This document shows positions 3,350 through 16,710 of a stretch of 40,000 nucleotides of DNA, piece by piece; positions within the stretch are counted from its first letter, which is position 1, and each line of letters opens with the position of its first letter. This DNA is from Ectocarpus siliculosus (lineage: Eukaryota; Sar; Phaeophyceae; Ectocarpales; Ectocarpaceae): contig FN649729.1 in assembly GCA_000310025.1 (NCBI GenBank), positions 5,308,947-5,348,946 of the forward strand, in the 5' to 3' direction. Below the pieces are notes generated by a model that saw nothing but the letters and a program-made list of their open reading frames with translations, did not search any database and was not told where the DNA came from. The translations under genes were made by a program, and so were the position numbers.

Positions 3350-3792
3350 TGCTCATTGTTGTTGCTATGTTTTGCTGTGTTCGGCGGTGCATGAATGATT
3401 GACAAGGTGTGTTGTTCTTGAGCTCTTTACACTGGAACTGTTGTTGTTGACGATGAGCTGCTTCTTCTGCTTCTTCTGCTGCTTCTGGTGCTTCTGGTGC
3501 TGCTGCTGCCGTGCTGACAGGCGGGTTTCCACTCTGGACTTTACCGACTCGAAGAAGTGGAGAGCAGGGGGGCTTTGGCTAATCATCGTCGGTTGCATCT
3601 CTATCGCGTTCTGCATCGTCATCGGAAACTTCCAGCCCAGGTGGGTGCATCTCTTGTGGTACACGTGGTACCATGGTATATACCGCACCAAATGGTACCG
3701 TGATACTCACTCAGCGCTTGCCGTACACATTGATATGGTCCAGCGAAAGATTGGCATTGACGTTTTATCCGTACGCGTGATTGCCCAGCTGA
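651..3792 (+). CDS. Basic His-rich protein with one C-terminal hydrophobic segment (5' incomplete)
   Basis: I do not recognise the family. Five exons join in frame: 651-833, 1567-1626, 2188-2238, 2922-3055 and 3521-3640. Junctions are phase 0 except the last, which is phase 2, and all have NAG acceptors and GT donors. The visible product is about 183 residues. It begins with a Lys/Glu-rich stretch (KRVKEVVPKPSKPTKEELAE), continues through a His-rich basic part with HHH, HH and WRHQHRQWHH clusters, then a charged helix. It ends with a hydrophobic segment of about 20 residues (GGLWLIIVGCISIAFCIVIG) followed by NFQPR. If the strong donor at 3641 joins the acceptor at 3788, the next bases give Ser and then TGA at 3790-3792. 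Reading through instead stops at 3818. The start codon was not found. A basic body with a hydrophobic end would suit a tail-anchored membrane protein, which is inference. Confidence 0.6.
2773..2797. repeat. GACAT microsatellite, five copies
   Basis: Five perfect copies of gacat lie in the intron before the fourth exon of the first gene. Confidence 0.9.
2841..2941 (+). repeat. Duplicated exon start and splice acceptor
   Basis: About 26 bp spanning the acceptor and first codons of the exon at 2922 have a near copy about 75 bp upstream. The upstream copy reads cac where the true acceptor reads cag, so its AG is missing. A run of cctaaccctaaacc lies between the copies. Confidence 0.6.
3236..3520 (+). 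repeat. Duplicated intron segment with CTG/GGTGCT-type repeats
   Basis: Two diverged copies, from about 3236 and about 3379, share the order ggacaag-tgtgtt, then gagctcttt, then a run of ctg/ggt/ctt triplets. The second run ends in the acceptor of the hydrophobic-segment exon at 3521, so the triplet repeat forms its pyrimidine-containing upstream tract. Confidence 0.6.
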
Positions 3793-5380
3793 CCTATCTC
3801 TGCCTTAAGGGCTGTTGACGATGACGGTGAGAGCGTCAACGAGAGTGAATCGTCGCTGATTTCCTTCAACACGAGACTTGCTTTGGAGTGGCTTACGCCG
3901 CCACATCTCCACAGCCGACACATGTTGGCTTGTACGCACAGAGAATGAATTCCCTTCCCCGTAGCTGCACCTACTGCGATAGCCCAAGGCGGGGTTGGTT
4001 GTGATGCAATTCACTCAGTGAATCAGTGAAACGAGCGGTCGGAACGATTTTTAGTTAGTAGTGTTTGCGTGGCGTGATATGGTTCGTATGTAGTCCAATG
4101 CACTCTTCCGGTGCATGTTAGTGAAATACCTGTGTCATATATTGTAGTATTTTGGTAGCATTCTGGTATTCATTCGACATAAATGTCTGTTCGCCCCAAC
4201 CCCAGCAAGAATTATTGTTACGCCTGCTGCCCTGGTTTAGTAATCTGGACGCAGCCACTGGCCTGAGTGCCGTACGATGTGCGCGAATGTGTTTTCATCT
4301 GCCGCACCCCTCGACGTGGTCAGAGCACAAGTGTACGTACCGTATTAACAGATGGGTTGCTCATTCATTGCTCTCTATTGGTACGATATATGCATATGTA
4401 CCTCGAGCCAAGCACTCAGGAACGCTTAGGCCTTGGAACAGCACTTGCAGTCTATTGGGTGTATTGTTTTCCCAACTCGTTGACCTAAGGATTCGATTTT
4501 TGTTTTCCTACCCTCCAAGGTGCGATCGACCGTTGACACGACACATATGAACTTCTTCGCGCACAATAATAACAAATTTTTCGTTGTTGTGTAGTTGCTG
4601 TCTGGGAACACATATTCGGGTGACAGCGCCGTCCAATCGGTGCACACTGGAAGTGAATCAAGAGACTCGATACACGCCCCTCTAGACGACAAGGCTAGGC
4701 TCCTCCCTACTTCCCCATTGGCTTGGGGCCGTTCGGAAGAGGGACGATCAAAAACAACACATCGTTGCAATCATTTTCTAGTTTTCCGCGAGGAGATTCG
4801 AGTCTACGAAGCAAGAAAAGCAAGTCTCCTTGTGTGAGCCCGGCTACACACATATGATATCCCTCCGTCGGCAGCAAGGTGGCTCGCAAGACAGCCATCA
4901 CGAACCGAAACACTCCATGTATGCACACGAATGTACAGCAGTGAAGGCGGGAGCTGCGGAGACGGTGTGATGGTGCAACAACAGCAATACACAAATATTT
5001 GGCGCCCGCTCCCCATCCATCTGCATCAATGTGATCCGCGTTCAGGCATGACAATCGAAGACCTCGCATGATCTAGACTTCGATGACAGTGACGGCAAAT
5101 GGTGTTTTTGGTACGCATTCAACAATACGCAAAATCTTGGCCCCACGATGCCCATCCGTTGGCTGCGATGGGATCCGCTGTCGCAACTTTTCTGCACCTT
5201 TTGTGAGCCCACACAAGGCTTACGGGGGCCGAGCTAAAGATCTCAGATGAAAATCACAACGTTAACGTTGGGTGGTGGCCCTTGGTCGGAGTTAGGACCT
5301 TTTTCGCGTTTCCCTTTTTGTTCGCTTTTTCTTCGGTTTATGGCTGTGCGTCTGCGCGTTCGCGGGTGCCTGCACGGCGT

Positions 5381-5393
5381 GACCCCCCTCCCT

Positions 5394-5426
<33 letters not shown>

Positions 5427-5455
5427 CCCCCCCTCTCTCTCCCTCGCTCTCTCTG
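5381..5455. repeat. CT-rich microsatellite
   Basis: Runs of ccct and ct dinucleotides on the + strand. They keep a long - strand frame open (Arg-Glu repeats), which is low-complexity and not a gene. Confidence 0.9.
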
Positions 5456-5577
5456 CCTGTCTGTGTCTGTTTTTGTCTTTGTCGCTCCCCTCTCTCTCTC
5501 TGCATTTCTTTTGTGTGCCTGCGTCGCTGTCTCTCCCTCGGTCACGATCTGGGCGGTCGTGTGGTCGTGCGGCGCAG

Positions 5578-5623
5578 GCCACTGAAGAAAATGTCGTGAT
5601 CTACAAGATCTACGAGGTCCACG
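5578..5623 (+). other. Weak exon candidate
   Basis: After a gcgcag acceptor, the frame reads ATEENVVIYKIYEVH up to a possible donor (gtactg) at 5624. A Lys/Glu-rich open stretch from about 5690 to 5820 could follow in phase 1. The codon pattern looks coding, but no partner exon or family is identifiable, and the implied intron of about 65 bp is very short for this window. Confidence 0.2.
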
Positions 5624-5840
5624 GTACTGCTGCATGGCATACGTTATGCACAACTCGGCTCCCACGGTGGCATCTCTGAGAACCAGCAGAAAGGCAGGGA
5701 GCGGGGGGCGGGCACGGTCAGAAGAGATTCGACAAGGAGGAAAATAAGGGATTCGAGAAGGAGAAAAAGAAAGAAAAATCGCTGGCACAGAGACAGAAGA
5801 GGCCTGGCTGGCCGTCAAGACACATGACATCCTGCCTTCA

Positions 5841-5878
5841 CTTCCATCACTTCCATCACTTCCATCACTTCCATCACT
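5841..5878. repeat. Tandem repeat of cttccatca, four copies
   Basis: Four exact 9-bp units with a partial fifth. On the opposite strand they read as a Ser-Asp-Gly repeat. Confidence 0.9.
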
Positions 5879-6080
5879 CACTTCTGTTTTCTTTCCTTTC
5901 TGGCGTCGCCCCTCTAGAAAAGGTGGTATTGTAGTGTTTGTTGGTGTGGTTGTATGTGAGGGTCTTACGCCCCTCCACTGCCGTGCCGTGCTGTAACGCT
6001 CTAGCTCCGCCGGCGGCGAGTCGTCGATCTCGACTCTTTGAAGGGGTCGGGGAGGTTGCTCGTGAGACCTAGATGCCCTT

Positions 6081-6131
6081 CGACTGTGGGATATTATCTC
6101 GAATGGGTACAATAGTCTGTTAGTCTTTCTT
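6081..6131. repeat. Partial copy of the 57-bp dispersed repeat
   Basis: It shares cgactgtggg, tatctcgaatgggta and tagtctttct, in the same order, with the copies at 17251-17307 and 18068-18124, with small insertions between these blocks. Confidence 0.55.
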
Positions 6132-6670
6132 TGATTTTATGCATGTTTGCTGAAGCTGGGGCCTGTGGAACACAGCGGGAGTTCGAAAGATGAACCCCTC
6201 GTCGTGGGTGACAAGTGAAAGCCAGCACCATAACGGGAGGATTGGAGACATACTGGCGTGGTTTCGGGGTGTAGGGGATAGGAAGTGGACTCTTGATGAG
6301 TGGTTGGGTGTGGCCGAGCCTGGAGGCGTTACGACGGTTTCTTCATGTTTGATGATGATATGCTCTTCCTCCTCCGTCGCTGTGGCTGGCCGACCTCTCA
6401 CTTTTCGTCACCCCTCCCTGTCTTCTGCCTTCCTTTCCTTCCCGCGAGAAGAGCGTGGTGCTTCAAGGAGGACGCGTTTTGATCGGGTGCCGAGCAATCT
6501 ATAGTAGTTACCGTAGGTTGCATGTACGTGAGGTACCACACCTCCTGCACCGATGTTCAACGGCCGACTACTTGCATCAATGCTACTATATTAGCAGTGA
6601 TCGCGCCCAAAATTTCGACGTTGGAGCCGCCTCGTCGACAACTTTTCGAAAACGTCTCACTTGATTTGTA

Positions 6671-6714
6671 CATCTGGTCGTGGAGGAATCGACATCTGGT
6701 CGTGGAGGAATCGA
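6671..6714. repeat. Perfect 22-bp tandem duplication
   Basis: The unit catctggtcgtggaggaatcga occurs at 6671-6692 and again at 6693-6714. It forms the right end of a diverged repeat that recurs near 22780-22860. Confidence 0.85.
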
Positions 6715-7834
6715 TCTAGGAGGTGTAGCCGGCACAGACCTGCACGTGACCCACGTGCAGTGCTGGTGTTGATGTGGGAGGTAGGGGAAGAGGATATGCA
6801 TCTCAGCAAGATAAGTGTCAGAGATTCATTCAGTAAAAAAAGAGTGGCAGTTAGACGGTCTACAGTCCACCAAGTATTGTAGGTGTATTAGGTTTTTACT
6901 CTGCGTGGGGAGTACGGGTAAAGAAAGGTCGTTCAGGGAAGAAAGGAGGTATTCTTAGTCTAATGCTTGCGGTGGAAGCGGCGGCGACTACATGTAGATC
7001 ACCACCCTTTCTATTTTCGGCATGCGTGCGCCCAGCTGTTGTACTTGTAGGCTATCTTCTGGTTTGGCTTTTGCAGCATGTGTGTGTGAGAAAGCGCGTC
7101 GTGCATACGTGCGAATGTTACTGTTTTCTCTTGTATTGGCTTTTTTAATGCATGCTGTATCATGTATGTGTGTGGTTTCTCTGTTGGTAGTACTGTGTTA
7201 ATTTGTCCGTGCTTCAAGAGTGCGGGTGCTCAATTCTTCAGAAGTTCCACCAGCTGTGCGATGGATGAAAGTATTCCCTTTTGGAATTTACTCGGAGGAT
7301 TGAACGCAACAAACGTGTGCACCACACGCCGAGCATATCTTCTGGGTCGCCCAGGCTGAGGACCTTCAAATGGAACACCCCGGGCGTGTCTCCTCTCTTC
7401 CAGGGAGTCTACCATTAGCTAGCGTCCCGCGTCGACCAGTCAGCATTCAAACGTTGTAACGGAAAATGACTGGGGATTCGAAATCTGCCGGAGCGGTGAT
7501 ACGAAAGAAATGCAGACAGATGCCACAGTTGTTTTTACCGCTTGCGTCAATTTGTTGTGTGTGTAAGCAACTCCTCCGGGGACACTTTGAACGTGGCGGG
7601 TTGGGTGAAGGTCGGAAACGTAGGTACATTACATCGGCACCTGGGGGGTGGGCGTGGATAGCCGTGGGAAAACTACAGCCATGGCTGTTGCATGGTGTAC
7701 AGCAACAACGCGTGCATTCGCCGAAGGCAATGTATGTGTGTGTGCAAGGACGACGCGACTAGGTGCCACCGGCAGATTGAACAAGCACAGCAAACACCAA
7801 AGAGCGAAAACTTGATGATATAATATGATACCGT

Positions 7835-7917
7835 TCGTACGGTGCTCACTTGCGATTGAAAACGACATGAGATTATATCTTTCGTGCGGTACTCACTTGC
7901 GAATGAAAACGACATGA
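7835..7917. repeat. Two-copy tandem repeat, 48-bp period
   Basis: About 35 bp at 7835 (cgtacggtgctcacttgcga onward to gacatga) recurs at 7883 with three differences. On the - strand each copy reads as the start of a short ORF (MSFS...), which I do not consider a gene. Confidence 0.8.
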
Positions 7918-8636
7918 TGCACGCTACTGCCCTCCCCCCCTTTACGCGTGCAAACGGAATGTAACACAGGACAAAAACATTCAAATAACGTGGAAAAACC
8001 ACAGGAGCAGCGGTTACTGCTGTGCGTACAATACACACATACTGAAACAAGCAAGAGAATCGGCCGACTCGAAAACAATCTCATCTAGTGCCAAACCGAC
8101 ATCATGAACACAACAACAACTGGTCTGGGTACGTATGTATGCATGACAACAATCACCGGTTCTTTATCTTCCCCCACCCCCATGCTCTTTTCCCGAAGGA
8201 CCGAGCAAGACACTCAATCAACACGTTGTGTCTCTCTTGACACCAAAACAAATGCTGCCTGCCGCATGTAGCTGCCGCTAACCAGTGAAAAAATGAGTGA
8301 AGGACATTTCTACTGTAGGTGGACACGCGCCAGCCCGGCGCTCGAACATCGAAAAAAGATTCCGACAAGGAAAAGCGAGATCCAAAACATTCCTCCGCTT
8401 CGACATATCGATAACTCGCGGCAACACTCCCCATCTGTCGAACGTTCCCTGCGCCCCTGAGATATTACAAGCAAAGCCCACATGCAGGCCATAGACTGCC
8501 ACATTTTGTTTTACGCGTACCTTGACCGCGCACCTTGCCGAAAATAGTGACCTATACAAGAAAAAGCAACAGTGCCACGTCAACCCGCAGCCGGGATTGT
8601 TTCCATCCAAGTTGCCCCACTTCTCGCACGCTGCCA

Positions 8637-11600
8637 TCACGGCAGAAAGGACGCAGGCAAAACCTCGTCAAGATTTGGACGTGCCAGATTTCTGCAGGCT
8701 GAGGAGAAAACGCTATCTCGACTAATCAAGGTCTAAGAGGGCGGGGCGGAATCCCGCAAAAGACATGGCCAAAACCAAGTAAGGCAAAGAAGAACTACTT
8801 GGGAAACAATCACGAGCGGAAGGGGGAACACTGATGGCAGTGAGGCCCTCACCGCATATACCCCACACTGCCCCGAGCACGAAAATGACCGCGAAATAAA
8901 TCAAACCAACCCAACCAACAAGTCCAGCGAGGAAGCCGTTACTGATTATGGTCCGCCACATTCACAAAACAATACAAGCAAGTGTAAAACAACACAATAC
9001 TTACTTGCCACAAATCCCGGCGTTGAAATACACAAGTACACCATCTGCTCGACAGACCGAGATAGATAGGGGGCGAGCAATTCGCGCCCAGCTGAAACCG
9101 GAGACTTATTGTAGCGACTAACGAGTGAGTGCTCCGGCGGCCAGGGTTCGCGCCTCAGGACGGGCGTTTCTCTCTCTGTTACGTTGGGGACACGACGCGA
9201 GGCAAGGCGAGGGGACGGAAATATATCAAGAAAATTCATTGCGTACTACTGTAAGCACATGTTTTTCTGCGCTTCGATGAAAACCTGTTGCGAGTTGCCA
9301 AGTGTCCGAATCGAATCGTGTGACCATGGCCTTGGTGAGGATAAGCCGGCCCTCAATGTGCAACTCTCTCCCCCAGGCCAAGGAGCTATCATGAATATCA
9401 TTGATCTAATACCTTCAGGCGGCCACAAGCTATGTAGCTCTACGCCGAAGACTTGGTGAAACGGTCAAAACTGACGACGTCGCTCAAACACACAACCGCC
9501 TCAATCACCCGGATACATAGCGCGCGCTCGGTCGACGGTAATGAACTCGTCAAAGAACGCACCCTATGCACAGCAGCGAGAATGAACCCTACGCACAGAC
9601 AGACGCTGTCACGCACGTACGTACCGGCCTACATGAGGATGCAGGGGCCTTCCTCTACCCCTTCGTCGGAGCACTTGACCCCCGTGAGCAAGATCTTCTC
9701 CTGGCAGCAGGCCGGCACGCCCACGCACTGATCCGCGCTCTCGATCCGGCACGAGGAGCAGTGCTCCATGCAGCAGACGGTGCCGTCGTCTGACTCGAGG
9801 CCGGGGATGTCGCCAGTGCAAGTGCTCACGGGCCCAGGGGGGCGTGTGGGCATAGGCGTTGTGGGCGCGGGGACCGGGGTCGGGGGTGGCGCAACTGTTC
9901 GGCGAGCGGAAGGGGCGGCGGAAACAAAAATGAAGGCGTCGTGGTTCAGAAAGACGAGCAGGGCAGATCATTAACTGCTGTAGAGAAAAGTTGGGGGTGC
10001 GGCACCTGTTCATTTTTTTGCCGGGAAGCAAGTTCTATGGATGACGACGGCAGCAGCTACGCCGAACGGCAAGAAAGACTACGCAAAATGTGTGTTTGGG
10101 TTTTAAAAGAAGAAGGTGTTTCGTATTGGTCCGGTGTAATGTCCTCGAAGAATCAACTTGGTAGGGTCGGGCCATGATCAAACAAAGGACAAACACTAAA
10201 CTTCAGAAAGATGAAGAAACATATTGATGCGACGGCAGGCAGCAGTTGTCGTAGCAGCGCCAGCCAGCCTTACCAACGTTGAACACGCAAGGCGCCGCGT
10301 TCGTGTACTCGCAGAGGTCTTCCCTGGACTGGATCGTGTGCTCGCAGCAGCCCCCCTCCCCGACGCATCTGTCTCCACCACACTCACCGCACCTGATTAC
10401 ATCACATCACAGAAGAGAGAGGGCGCAAACACGCAACTTAACTCCCTTCACAGACGTGAAGGCAAGGCACCAAACGCCTACGCTACAACAACTACTAGTA
10501 TGCTTCCCCCCAGAGACGCCTTGACAAGCTGTCAAGAGCGTCTCAACCGACAACATAAACACCCAAAACGAATGAATCGCAGCAGCAATTATATATTACT
10601 GTAGTGGTGAAATACAACATTCTCGCTTCCGCGGAGGCTAAACCTCCTTTGTCAAAGGCGGTTGCAACCCCCCAAGAATCTCACCTCTTGTCAACTGAGG
10701 ACGACATCTCCCCACAACACCAACCGTTGACTCAGTATGTATCACAACGTGCTCCCAAAGCCACTTGCAAGTGTTTTTCACAGCAGGTCGTCCCAACAAC
10801 ACTCATTCGTGACAGAGTGCGCGACGTCAGCATGATCTCGACGGCGCAAAACAGACGCCTGGGGCCGGCAAAAACATAAAAGTAAGCCCTCACTCACACA
10901 TGAGGTCCTAGATCATGGCCAGAAGTATTTTGCGTTTCATCCGCACTGAGAATTGCGTTTTTCCATTTGTCAGCCGGTTAGCGCAGTCGACGCAAAAAAA
11001 AAAATAATTACACCCACCAACGCAAAATAGTATGGGTACATGTAGGCGTTAGTGTTCTTACGAGAAAGGGCAGCAGACGTCCCCGCTCGCGGCCTCGACG
11101 CCGACGATGCCGCCGGTGCACGTCGGCACTGCGTTTTTTCACGTACAAGTCAGAGAGCAGGGCAACAGGAAGGAAGGGGACGTCGCCGTGGGTGTGTTGG
11201 GAAAAAGGAAAAAGGACTTCCGCTACATACTGGTGCAATATAAGCCCGTATGCGTACTAGTCACGACATGAGACAGTAGGTTTTGGTCTACACAACCGCC
11301 AACACATGTGTTCTTCGTACGCTGTCGCCATCACGGAAGAGCCAAGAACAAGCGGTGTTCTCTCGTCGCCGGGCCAAATCCAAACAAAACGATTCTGTCC
11401 CTTTCGACTATTAATACTGTCGTCGTATCTATAACGGTTAGTAATTCTTCGATTGGATGCATATCTCATAAAACATTATCTGAAAAGAAAGGGTGCATCG
11501 TGTAGACTAACACCCTTGTGTGAACCTGCCTTGGCTTTTTCAGAATTTCGCATCGGAGGTCTGTCTGTAGAGCACAGTATCGCACAACAACGAATGCTGC

Positions 11601-14600
11601 AAGAACACCGTGGCCCGGCCATCACCCAAAACCGCCGAGGGTGGATGGATGAAAAGCGACTCACGGATTTGGTAGAGGTCGAAGGCTTGGGCCCCGCCGC
11701 AGGTCTCATCCGGGGACCCCGGGCAAGCGGTGCTGCACGTTGCTGCGGTCTGCTCGTCGTACGTGTCGAGGAACGTTTCGACGAACGTTTCCTCGTCGCC
11801 GCACGAGCAGACGTTGCCCTCGACGAGCCCGAAGTACAGCGAGGACTCCGAGGCGCACAGCTCGTAGCACGCCTGTCAGGCGTTTTGCCGGATAACGTGA
11901 GGGGGGGAGGGGGGCGTTCTCAGGACGTGACGACAACGAACAGGATGGTGGTCTTCTCAAGTGAGTAGGTTGCAAGAGAAACAAGACGATGGTGTCCCAT
12001 GAGTTGCAAGATTCGGAAGAAGCGACGTCGACTACCGGGGGGCGGGCGTACTCCAGTTTCGCACGCCGTAGCGGTCAGACGGTTGACCGTGCGTCCTCGA
12101 GAGTGTGGAACACTGTTCCCACAGGTCCTATCACCGAAGGCCAATCGTTCCTTCCTACTTTGACAGAGGTGGCTCAAGAACGTTTTCCCTGCCCTAACTA
12201 CCCTGTCGAAAAGTTTTTCCGCCTTCTCAGCCCCTTCCTATGCCGCAGTACAGCTACCTTCTTCTGTGGGGGGACGGGTTGTTCGACGTTCGTCTCGAGT
12301 TCCTCCATTCCAAAAAACGCTTTGTGTTGTGTCGCAAGGGATTACGCAACAGACAAGACAAGACAAGATAGGGGATCGGATGGTGCCGACGGCACGTGAT
12401 TCAAACAACAGCGGCACGTCATTCAAACAACAACAAGAGAGTCCGCGCGTGCACCACGTGCTGCTGCCTGCTGCGGGCGGGGCGATGGGCGACGGTGGCC
12501 GTCTTACCTCCGCGGTGAGGTCGGACACCGTCGACGAAACCGTGAAGGGGTCTTCGTAGTCGCCGATCTTGCCGCAGCCGAGAGCGATGTACACCGGGGT
12601 GGATGCTTCCTGAACCAGGGGAGAGCCTGATGATCGATGATCGAACACAACGCCAGTCGGCGCCAGTAAAAGAAGACAAATATAGATACTATGATAATAC
12701 GGTATGCGTGTGAAAAAATAGGCTCAGATTGTCGTCGCGAAACACAACAAAAATTGGCTTAGTTGGAATGGTATAGCCTTGGTACTGAATGAATTCAGCC
12801 TTGACCAGAACATGTTTGGCTCTCTTCTGCAGCCTTATTTTCACGTGGGGCGGAATCTCTTGGCGGCCTTTCCGTACATACGGTAGCAGAGATGGCAAAG
12901 CTATGTAACAGATCGGCGACTCGAGACCAAAAGAGCATCGAAGGGCCATGTCCTGCCGTCCACAGTAATCAGCCTTCCTCACGAGGAGTGCGGTAAGGTA
13001 TACTTGTAAATGTTGCCAGGGAAAAGGACACGGGATTCTTAACTACACGGATGCACGTACGTATATCTGAGTCTTGTATGGTACCCAACGCTCGAGATTT
13101 CCATCGCACTACACATTGGACCCCGATATTCGTACCGCACTACCAAAGGAACCCTGGCTGCGCAAGTCACGTACACTCACCAGTTTCATCCTCAGCTAGA
13201 CCAACAAGATCAACGGATGGACGCCGCCCGCCGCCAAAGGTCCGGTCCGCACGTCGAAAGGCCGCAAGATAACACGGGTTGGCACCGGCGGCCCGGAAAA
13301 GACCGGGAGGGGTGGGGGAAGGGACATTTAAGCATTAAGGGTCTTCGAAGGGGAAAGCGAACAAGGCGCGTCACGTCGCTAGCGCAACCAACGTATGCCA
13401 GAAACGTCAACCCCGCCACGCAAGCTCTGCTGGTGAGCGCACGTGTCTAGCGACAGAGGGCGGCGTGTATCGGCGGGGCCGCAGAATTGCGGGAGAAAAT
13501 TATTCCGAACATCTGCAGGTGGTCAAACTTCACACGGAGCGGATCGGAAAGCTCTACATACGTCATAGACATACAGCAGTACAACAGCCTACCCATTATA
13601 TCTGGAGCCCGGGAAGGGAACGCCATATGGCGTTTGACAGTGGTTTGGTGAAGTAAAGTTTTGACGAAATACCCCTGCAGGTTGGGCTTGGATGAAATGA
13701 TGCCTCCGGCCAGGGGTACAGCAGTACACATACCTCGACGACTACGAACATCTCTGTCCATGCGTCAGAACTGCACGCCGAAAGAAAGTGTCAAGACTGG
13801 CGCCAGAATAGTCGGGATGAGCGCACACCACCCCTGGGACTTTTTCCCCCGAGGCTCTGTGGCGACTCGTGGAAAGGGCGCCCCCCCCTCCCCCTCCCCC
13901 GCGCCGCCCCCTTCCCCTACCTCTGAGAACGCCCCTTGGCACAGGTGCTCTCGTTCAACGGAAATGCTTCCAACACTTCAAGGGGAGTTGGTTTATCGTT
14001 ACCCAAGGATCGCACGGGTTCGTGTCCTGATCGGATGGTGGGGCCGACGCCCCCAGCTCCGTCCGAGAAAACGGCACCGCGAAAAGAAACCTATCTGTGG
14101 ACACCGCGTCCAAACAGCAGAGGAAAGATCAACAACAGCATGTGCCACGAACCAGCATGGCCGCCGCGGCCTACCACGGCCAAGTACTCACAGTCGTAAG
14201 CAACGCAAGGAGCGGCCCCAGAGTCGGAGCACTTGACGCCTTCTTTAGTGATGTCGCTGACGCAGCAGTCGCCGTCAGCGAGACCTGCTGCCAGCGCTGC
14301 TTCGGTGCAGTCCCGGCCCCCGCACAGGACGCACTCGGACGGGCAGCAGACGTCGCCGTCACCGGACGAGATGCCCTCGACGCCGTCGGTGTTGGAGCAA
14401 GTGTCGCCGGCAGATTCTTGGCTGGCATCTTCACGCGAAGAAACGTAAAGCATCCGAGAGGAACAAGGAGGGCGCAGACAACAAACAAGAGAAAAAAAAC
14501 ATCAACGCGGTGTCCTATTGTGGGGGCGTTCCGACATGCTTTGGCCCCACGCCCGTTTCGTTTTTGGGGGGGGCGGGGTTGACAAGGATGATTGCTGCGG

Positions 14601-16710
14601 TTTGCCAGAATCGAAACACACCCGTCGACGGTCACCAACCACCACCACCACACCACAAAAACTGAGGCTTGCTCACCGTCAATAATGCAAGGCGCCATCT
14701 GGTTCTCGGAGCACGAGGCACCGGAGACAATGATGTCGCCGAAGCAGCAGTCGCCATCGTCGAGCCCGGCGTTCACTGCCGCCTCGGTGCACGCTTCCCC
14801 TCCGCAGAACCCACATGCAGTCGGGCAGCAGACGTCGCCGTTGGCGGACTCAATTCCTTCGATGCCGTTGCTGCAAGTCTGGGTCGTGGCTTTTTGCAAC
14901 AAGAAGCGGGGGGGTTGGGTCGTTGTCAGGGGTATGAGATGCTGCATGTCTGGGACTTGTATTGGTCGGCTTATAGAGGCGTACAGCTGCTATTTAGGAG
15001 ACCAGAGGGGGGGTACCGCGAGAGTGGTCGATGACGCCTGTGCATCCGACAGACAACGTGTTCGGGGCCGTACGTACTGCTGCTGGAGTACGCCCCCAGA
15101 TTCACCACCCGGTACCCCCTGCTTTTCCATACCATGCACACAGCATGTCTACACCTATGATTTGCGTAATCAAAACAAGGCGTCTTGCTTTGTGCCCGTT
15201 CGTCTCTTCTGCGTCGACAAGCCCGGCCTAGGTTGATGCAGCATGCTGTACTGTAAGGCACACACGAGAGGGGAGTCTACATGTAAGGCCTCCAACAAGC
15301 CCTAGGGCCACCGACTGCTGCATCCGGCTCTCACCGGATTGGAGACTCCGGCCACGTGCGTCGCCCACGCTCGTCTTCCTCAAAAAGGGCTGCCATTGAG
15401 AATAACGTGTTCCGAGTCCATGCACGTTAGTGAACGCGCCGCACGGGGGATCTCTGTTAACAGATAGTATGCTATGATCCTTGTATGCATATTTGTATAT
15501 TCTTCCGGACCATTCGCGGCCTCAAGCCTCGCCGTCATCAATTCCATACCAGACGATAAGGCGGTACCGCCGTGTAATACAAAACACTGAGGACGAAGCG
15601 ACCGGCAATATGCTGTAAATCGAGTGTAGATTGGAGAACAGTTGCCTGTAGTACCTGATGTTGAGGCGCCTCTCACACACGCCACAAAGAGCGGGGTAAC
15701 CGAAGATATTTATTTACGGTATTCTATGTTCTATTTTACTGCTGTACCCCCGTCGTGATTCCTCTGTTAGGGTTAGGGCGGGTGAAATCCAGGTACGATA
15801 GAATAGGGTACAGTAGTCACTGCTGTGGTGAGTGATGGTACAGTATACAAGAAGGGTGAAAGGCATTCGATGCACCAAAACCTACATGTATGTACGTCAC
15901 GGTTCATACCGCGACGGGACATCGGGATGAAAAACAAAGGCAAACCACGGTTCGCACGTTCGCACGTTCGCACAACCGCATCATCGGGAGAAGCGGGAAA
16001 AATATTGTCGGCCCCAACTATTATATAATACATGTCGACAAGCATCCCACCGGAGAGACAAATTGACCAAAGGGAGCTCGTACGTTTTTGCAGCATGCAA
16101 CCTCCGTGTAGATTGCCAAACCTACACCACAATATTACACGTGCACGCCCAAAACTATGGACCATGATGGCCAAGCGTTATAAAGTGTGCGTGAAGTGTG
16201 AATTGAGTCTACGCTGAAGCCCGCTTCAAAAACCGTTCGAAATCCCTTGTACAATTCTGAGAGAAAAAAATTCTGCAGTCGCTTGACGCACGCCAGCCAG
16301 CCGCAACGTAGAAGTTAGTTCTCTAGACTGAAGGTCCAACACACTACAGTATCAACGCCGACCCCAAGCAGCCCTGTGCTTGTTGCAGCTAGTACGGAGC
16401 GTCGTTGTGAGCGAAAACGCGGCTTGCTCAACCAAATGCATAGATGAGTTCTATTAGGCAGTGGGATGACACAGCAGCACAACACAGCACCAAGATCACG
16501 GATTTTGGGGAAAAGTACCGTTACAAAAAGGCGCACGATGGATGTCTCCAGTCGCCAACCCAAGCAGTAAGATGTGCGTTCAAAATACGGTAACATTCAT
16601 CCATCACGAAGGCCCAACACCCTTACCTTGTGCTGGCTGAGCCCACCCTCGCTTGCTAATGCGTTAGCAAGCAGCGAGGCCAACCCCAGCAGTATCACGT
16701 CAGTCCTCAT
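8637..16710 (-). CDS. Secreted type I membrane protein with WSC domain and four ten-cysteine modules
   Basis: Ten exons, in gene order: 16710-16627, 14878-14677, 14428-14192, 12626-12508, 11872-11665, 11128-11062, 10392-10274, 9894-9633, 8941-8853, 8698-8637. They sum to 1449 nt, and every junction keeps the frame. The product is 482 residues. Residues 1-19 are a signal peptide (start ATG at 16710, cleavage expected after NALA). Cys modules lie at 29-95, about 104-174, 285-345 and about 370-433. A WSC domain at about 186-283 has eight cysteines (192, 216, 220, 236, 238, 260, 264, 272) and the signature YFGLVEGNVCSCG. A Pro/Thr linker spans 346-368, a transmembrane helix 434-462, and a short tail follows. 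WSC domains are known from yeast cell-wall stress sensors and algal wall enzymes. A wall-binding, sensing or adhesion role is inference. Less certain points are the AAG acceptor of exon 3, the long first intron (1.75 kb) and the last exon. Confidence 0.8.
10963..10993 (+). repeat. Short dispersed repeat with tRNA-like A box (copy 1)
   Basis: The core cagccggttagcgc-gtcga-gc is shared with 21370-21399. It resembles the D-arm/A-box part of a tRNA (GGTTAGCGC), but no B box or cloverleaf follows. It lies in an intron of the WSC gene, just before an A-run. Confidence 0.4.
14879..16626 (-). other. Long first intron of the WSC gene
   Basis: No exon is recognised in this 1.75 kb. It contains ttagggttaggg near 15765, a cgttcgca microrepeat near 15950-15975 and several tactgctg/cagcagta palindrome-like motifs. 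A missed symmetric phase-0 exon cannot be excluded. Confidence 0.4.

Follow-up and report, generated by a model that had tools for sequence, protein, structure and literature searches.

We describe a gene on the minus strand of a 40,000-nucleotide stretch of the Ectocarpus siliculosus genome (assembly GCA_000310025.1, contig FN649729.1, positions 5,308,947 to 5,348,946; hereafter the window), which probably encodes a secreted, non-catalytic and multivalent binder of wall polysaccharide with alginate as its probable ligand. The predicted protein consists of a signal peptide, two copies of a ten-cysteine (Cys) module, a WSC domain, a third Cys module, a Pro/Thr linker and a fourth Cys module, which is followed by the stop. 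A wall-binding protein is considered more likely than a membrane sensor because copies of the module adjoin genes of alginate-modifying enzymes in the alga and are joined to sugar-degrading enzymes in bacteria. Polysaccharide binding would be the simplest mechanism since both kinds of Cys-rich domain accompany polysaccharide enzymes. The main interest of the gene lies in the Cys module, which carries no family name. To our knowledge, the targeting of alginate-modifying enzymes and the tying of the wall in brown algae are poorly known, and the module, which is found repeatedly next to C5-epimerases and WSC domains and terminates bacterial polysaccharide-acting enzymes, is a direct candidate for the enzyme-targeting part.

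The gene was rebuilt from reading frames, splice sites and phases, and all coordinates are given as window positions. Eight minus-strand exons between 16710 and 9629 were found to have consistent phases, GT/AG sites and no internal stop, and together they encode 426 residues (a slash marks a splice junction here and below):

16627 to 16710, minus strand: exon 1, 84 nt, start codon and predicted signal peptide (MRTDVILLGLASLLANALA...), donor GTAAGG, phase 0
14677 to 14878, minus strand: exon 2, 202 nt, Cys module 1 (10 Cys)
14192 to 14428, minus strand: exon 3, 237 nt, Cys module 2 (10 Cys)
12508 to 12605, minus strand: exon 4, 98 nt, first part of the WSC domain, acceptor set at GAAG/CATCC so that the phase holds
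11665 to 11872, minus strand: exon 5, 208 nt, second part of the WSC domain
11062 to 11128, minus strand: exon 6, 67 nt, first part of Cys module 3
10274 to 10392, minus strand: exon 7, 119 nt, second part of Cys module 3
9629 to 9894, minus strand: exon 8, Pro/Thr linker, Cys module 4 (9632-9823) and stop TAG (9629-9631)

This eight-exon model is well supported from the sequence. Six candidate first exons running from an ATG to a donor were compared over 4.6 kb of upstream sequence, and exon 1 has the highest hydrophobicity among them; an in-frame stop is located eight codons ahead of its ATG. The signal peptide, a feature shared with Wsc-type sensors, was predicted from hydropathy alone and not with a dedicated predictor. 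Past residue 30 the best 19-residue mean hydropathy is 1.02, so that no hydrophobic stretch follows the signal peptide. An initial annotation of the window had read a single gene with a signal peptide here, and the eight in-phase exons and the hydrophobic first exon support this.

The only Pfam match of the protein is to the WSC domain (PF01822; 40.8 bits against a cut-off of 27.8, residues 184-267), which holds eight cysteines and belongs to this family. The Cys module comprises ten cysteines in about 60 residues, which follow the pattern C-x(14 to 16)-CC-x3-C-x2-C-x(4 to 7)-C-x(5 to 13)-CC-x10-C-x(7 to 9)-C in the four window copies, and all ten cysteines were found to be invariant across the 18 copies aligned (three from the window and 15 from bacteria). 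The 48 cysteines of the protein are fully accounted for by four modules of ten and the eight of the WSC domain, with none to spare. The Pfam match and this tally confirm the arrangement read initially, in which a WSC domain stands amid repeated Cys modules and a Pro/Thr linker. Comparison of the module with Pfam, NCBIfam, PHROGs, PADLOC and PDB sequences, the public libraries covered (CAZy's own models are not among them), gave nothing beyond chance level, and the best family match was a Pfam entry at E 0.66 for one of 21 copies. The initial annotation knew no name for the module, and Pfam, NCBIfam, PHROGs and PDB sequences offered none either. Among the publications listed in literature searches, no title or abstract start was about it.

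Searching the genome with the whole protein returned at least 96 matches, among them the exons of the gene itself and fragments of WSC domains, while one typical module returned at least 141 matches at E <= 0.001, some of which are partial or located on contigs resembling duplicates. Judged by these matches, the Cys module is a real family and not a chance resemblance, and we flag it for annotators as a large family that lacks a Pfam or NCBIfam profile.

In the alga, the module recurs near genes of alginate-modifying enzymes. A mannuronan C5-epimerase query gave 37 matches at 21 loci, which fits the brown-algal pattern in the available passages of PMC11468063, where brown algae average 27 such genes, Schizocladia has 11 and the other stramenopile genomes screened there have none. 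Among the matches listed, a limit that applies to all counts in this paragraph, seven of the 21 loci were observed to have Cys modules in the 9 kb upstream, in the same orientation as the epimerase, and none has them downstream or on the opposite strand. The expectation for upstream modules is 0.039 loci under uniform placement, a null which ignores the clustering of modules, and the seven loci are not seven independent events as those on C21 and C56 look like copies of each other. The count used 156 module positions, with some modules entered twice, one entry being a midpoint. An earlier count, which took the whole window protein as query and left out 11 of the 96 rows (WSC, signal-peptide or mixed pieces), had found modules near two of the 21 loci; with a typical module as query the number became seven. 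In addition, a same-strand WSC match lies no more than 4 kb away from nine of the 63 module groups, including that of the window, where about 0.16 WSC rows are expected, and no group has one on the opposite strand.

The closest counterpart of the window gene was found at L188 (C26:6808001-6817000), where a Cys module, a WSC domain, a Cys module, a Pro/Thr linker and a C5-epimerase lie in a row. Up to the linker the two genes share these parts in the same order and, by eye, the intron of the WSC domain follows TAE/TTE (here the slash separates two residue triplets) at the matching place and in phase 0. L188 differs in that it continues into the C5-epimerase (FDPHDD motif), whereas in the window gene an additional module precedes the WSC domain and a Cys module forms the last part; the introns inside the split Cys module are 5 nt apart and differ in phase. 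The predicted make-up of the window protein thus corresponds to the accessory half of this modular C5-epimerase gene, with a module added in front and a last module replacing the enzyme. A second locus, L024 (C26:6762001-6772000; 3361-9463, plus strand), contains, one after another, two Cys modules, a Pro/Thr exon (recognised by eye) and a mannuronan C5-epimerase that carries the FDPHDD motif. Its joined exons give an AlgG match with an E of 2.9e-8, which stays far below the full-length cut-off of that model. The DPHD motif named in the passages of PMC11468063 is present in the exons of both loci. The window gene itself is not a C5-epimerase, as no epimerase match at E <= 1e-5 occurs on contig C4.

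The module is also found on bacterial enzymes. A pattern scan of bacterial genomes, which sampled them in part, gave at least 119 loci, at least 15 of which carry the module at a domain E <= 1e-4; with five more from the Microbulbifer family, 20 bacterial relatives were obtained at this threshold. Five weaker matches were dropped, namely L137 (E 0.0019, not C-terminal), L092, L059, L128 and L166. The bacterial modules are 33-49% identical to window module 1, and in all 20 proteins the module is C-terminal and ends 0-9 residues before the stop. Eleven of its partner domains are beta-helix-like, two are GH16 and six are PL14, while L081 has no partner-domain match. Matches above Pfam cut-offs identify L146 as GH16 and L153, L183 and L186 as PL14. 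A further 14 proteins were assigned by blastp with the module left out (ten with the beta-helix-like L099, one with L146 and three with L153), and the 11 beta-helix-like proteins resemble one another. L153 and L183-L187, all from the Microbulbifer family, were noted to be PL14-type lyases that end in the Cys module. The module appears to be rare and scattered in bacteria: within the Microbulbifer family six of 144 genomes have it, one of which was known beforehand, and among Myxococcota three of 195, all known beforehand, with up to 33 candidates scored per genome. Fifteen bacterial genomes gave one module match each (in five of them the best 150 candidates were scored). Neither IMG/VR, searched by pattern and with one bacterial module as query, nor plasmids and phages yielded relatives.

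The module therefore has the form by which a carbohydrate-binding module (CBM) is recognised, that of a discrete module joined to carbohydrate-active enzymes, on the basis of eight of the 20 bacterial proteins with GH16 or PL14 (four by Pfam and four by blastp) and seven of the 21 epimerase loci, where joint transcripts are assumed. The role at wall polysaccharide proposed in the initial annotation is supported as likely by these neighbours in the alga and in bacteria. From the domain order, the module family and its company we infer that the signal peptide would direct the protein into the secretory pathway and that its 48 cysteines would pair as disulfides inside the five domains. The protein would be released into the wall without an anchor, where the four Cys modules, side by side with the WSC domain, may bind wall polysaccharide together with it, alginate or another acidic polymer being the most likely ligand. 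Five such domains in a row would cross-link or coat the alginate-rich wall, or alternatively might compete with enzymes that carry the same modules, and the protein would thereby act as a multivalent lectin or cross-linker of the wall that has no catalytic activity. A broader proposal, to which we give somewhat less than even chances, is that the module represents an undescribed CBM family for alginate-type uronic polymers, with gene transfer between bacteria and brown algae and about 100 or more algal copies, and that the window protein is one of the enzyme-free multivalent alginate binders which shape the wall.

Several observations weigh against a wall-polysaccharide binder. The polysaccharide link of 11 of the 20 bacterial proteins depends on a single weak match, that of the beta-helix-like L099 to a hyaluronate lyase family, which has an E of 5.7e-8 but reaches 31.4 bits where the cut-off is 1100. 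Among the matches listed, 54 of the 63 module groups have no WSC match nearby and 14 of the 21 epimerase loci have no upstream module match; module and epimerase exons were read in a row only at L188 and L024, on the assumption of one transcript. The AlphaFold2 models of the module were poor, with mean predicted local distance difference test scores (pLDDT) of 58.8 and 50.2, and therefore no fold search was made; with models of this quality, neither a fold nor a binding site can be named. The presence of the module on enzymes of differing substrates leaves the ligand unfixed, and for a secreted protein of this small size a structural or signalling role is just as conceivable.

The initial annotation had read ten exons in frame, and the first eight of these stand while the last two are not supported, in view of their splice entry, base composition and the genome search. 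The two disputed features are:

8853 to 8941, minus strand: hydrophobic stretch read as a membrane helix, unsupported as an exon by donor score, GC content at third codon positions (GC3) and genome search
8637 to 8698 (limits set by hand), minus strand: stretch read as a cytosolic tail, unsupported as an exon since it is reachable only through the unsupported helix exon

With them the protein would be a membrane wall sensor, exon 8 being spliced to helix and tail and the WSC/Cys head reporting wall stress, which we consider improbable at around one chance in ten; a membrane form made as a second splice product is counted under the same reading. The stretch 8941-8853 is indeed hydrophobic, open and in a phase that can be joined, the helix exon's own downstream donor scores 10.04 and the tail acceptor looks good by eye, all of which speaks for the sensor. 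However, the frame of exon 8 closes as ...GPCILM-TAG at 9629-9631, and joining the helix requires the donor CAT/GTAGGC at 9633, which overlaps this stop (measured to the final coding base ahead of that junction, exon 8 is 262 nt long). This donor scores -3.68, against 4.37 to 11.49 for the seven donors of the gene, each left out in turn, and of the 2732 GT sites that the minus strand of the window contains, 844 match or beat it. The comparison is partly circular: the profile was built from 45 donors, and 38 of them, which belong to module exons elsewhere in the genome and are in many cases near-identical, were chosen by a consensus pattern unable to match GTAGG. The GC3 of the helix exon, over 29 codons only, is 0.55 against 0.71-0.95 in the eight supported exons, the lowest value among which belongs to the 28-codon signal-peptide exon and is close to that of the helix exon. 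A query made of helix and tail gave only self-matches in the genome at E <= 10. By a hand reading, the sensor form would also add two cysteines to a set that is otherwise fully paired. Furthermore, the C-terminal modules of the family finish at a stop: among 48 module ends followed in pieces of the algal genome, a stop comes within one residue in three (the window, L019 and L023), and for 38 of the 44 module ends outside the window a donor resembling the consensus lies no further than 45 nt away; in all 20 bacterial relatives the module closes the protein. The fourth Cys module is most likely the end of the window protein, which would be secreted without a membrane anchor and count 426 residues where the annotation had 482 (about 475 by hand if the two extra exons are added). 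The logic of a sensor or receptor is thus not supported, because the single membrane helix and the signalling cytosolic tail of a Wsc sensor were not found (the donor test being partly circular) and the place of a long Ser/Thr-rich stalk is taken by a Pro/Thr-rich linker of about 25 residues between two Cys modules. Correcting this reading matters as it is apt to misdirect experiments.

The remaining alternatives keep the protein secreted or alter the meaning of the module. A structural or cell-adhesion protein, whose Cys modules would bind proteins or each other and not sugar, is unlikely at roughly one chance in five; it draws on the long tandem array of about 27 module exons at C4:5398-5437 kb, which is reminiscent of structural matrix proteins, and is opposed by the single bacterial module on enzymes that include the clear polysaccharide families GH16 and PL14 and by the algal module upstream of alginate epimerases. 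The identity of order with L188 as far as the linker would also suit a decayed modular C5-epimerase which has lost its catalytic exons, yet the eight exons are all open and in phase, an extra module and a stop occupy the place of the enzyme and contig C4 has no epimerase match at the threshold given above, so we regard decay as very unlikely. Least probable of all, with only a slight chance, is a module that serves as a tag for secretion or sorting in place of a binding function. Its C-terminal position in all 20 bacterial proteins is what a tag would predict. Sorting tags usually mark many proteins, and the single match in each of the 15 bacterial genomes (among the best 150 candidates in five of them), the 45 of 48 algal module ends that do not stop at once and the location of algal modules upstream of enzymes stand against it.

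Compared with known systems, the polysaccharide binder favoured here shares a Cys-rich WSC head and a secretory signal with the yeast Wsc sensors, whose head is presumed to contact the glucan layer according to the passages of PMC6685044. It is unlike them in its four extra Cys modules, its short Pro/Thr linker and the lack of a supported helix and tail. The bacterial GH16, PL14 and beta-helix-like proteins have in common with it a ten-Cys module at or near the stop and differ in having an enzyme-type domain and a single module. WSC-domain proteins are reported among brown-algal wall proteins (PMC8307928), and WSC also occurs on PR-1 (PMC12879055); in the passages of these two sources on brown-algal WSC proteins, an extracellular WSC domain is the shared feature and the Cys module is unmentioned. 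By its predicted domains the window protein is a WSC-containing protein, neither a shown Wsc sensor nor an epimerase, and resembles a string of candidate CBMs.

Other arrangements of the module were noticed in the genome. Further groups of Cys modules occur at C9:38925-46662, at C4:3131586-3141274 and on C207, C229 and C204, with no WSC or epimerase neighbour among the matches listed. At L023 (C368:531001-541000, minus strand), frames that are beta-helix-like by eye, one of which was tested and has no Pfam match, precede a set of four Cys modules; a long Glu-Ser-Ala-Asp repeat comes before the final module, which lies directly at the stop. The array mentioned above, in which about 27 exons with Cys modules stand in tandem (C4:5398478-5437000, L015-L018, minus strand), shares its strand with the window gene and lies some 73-112 kb away from it. 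Many of its exons are roughly 1 kb apart and many have a phase-1 donor by eye, and a WSC domain that has Thr/Pro linkers comes after them; the array is possibly one giant matrix protein.

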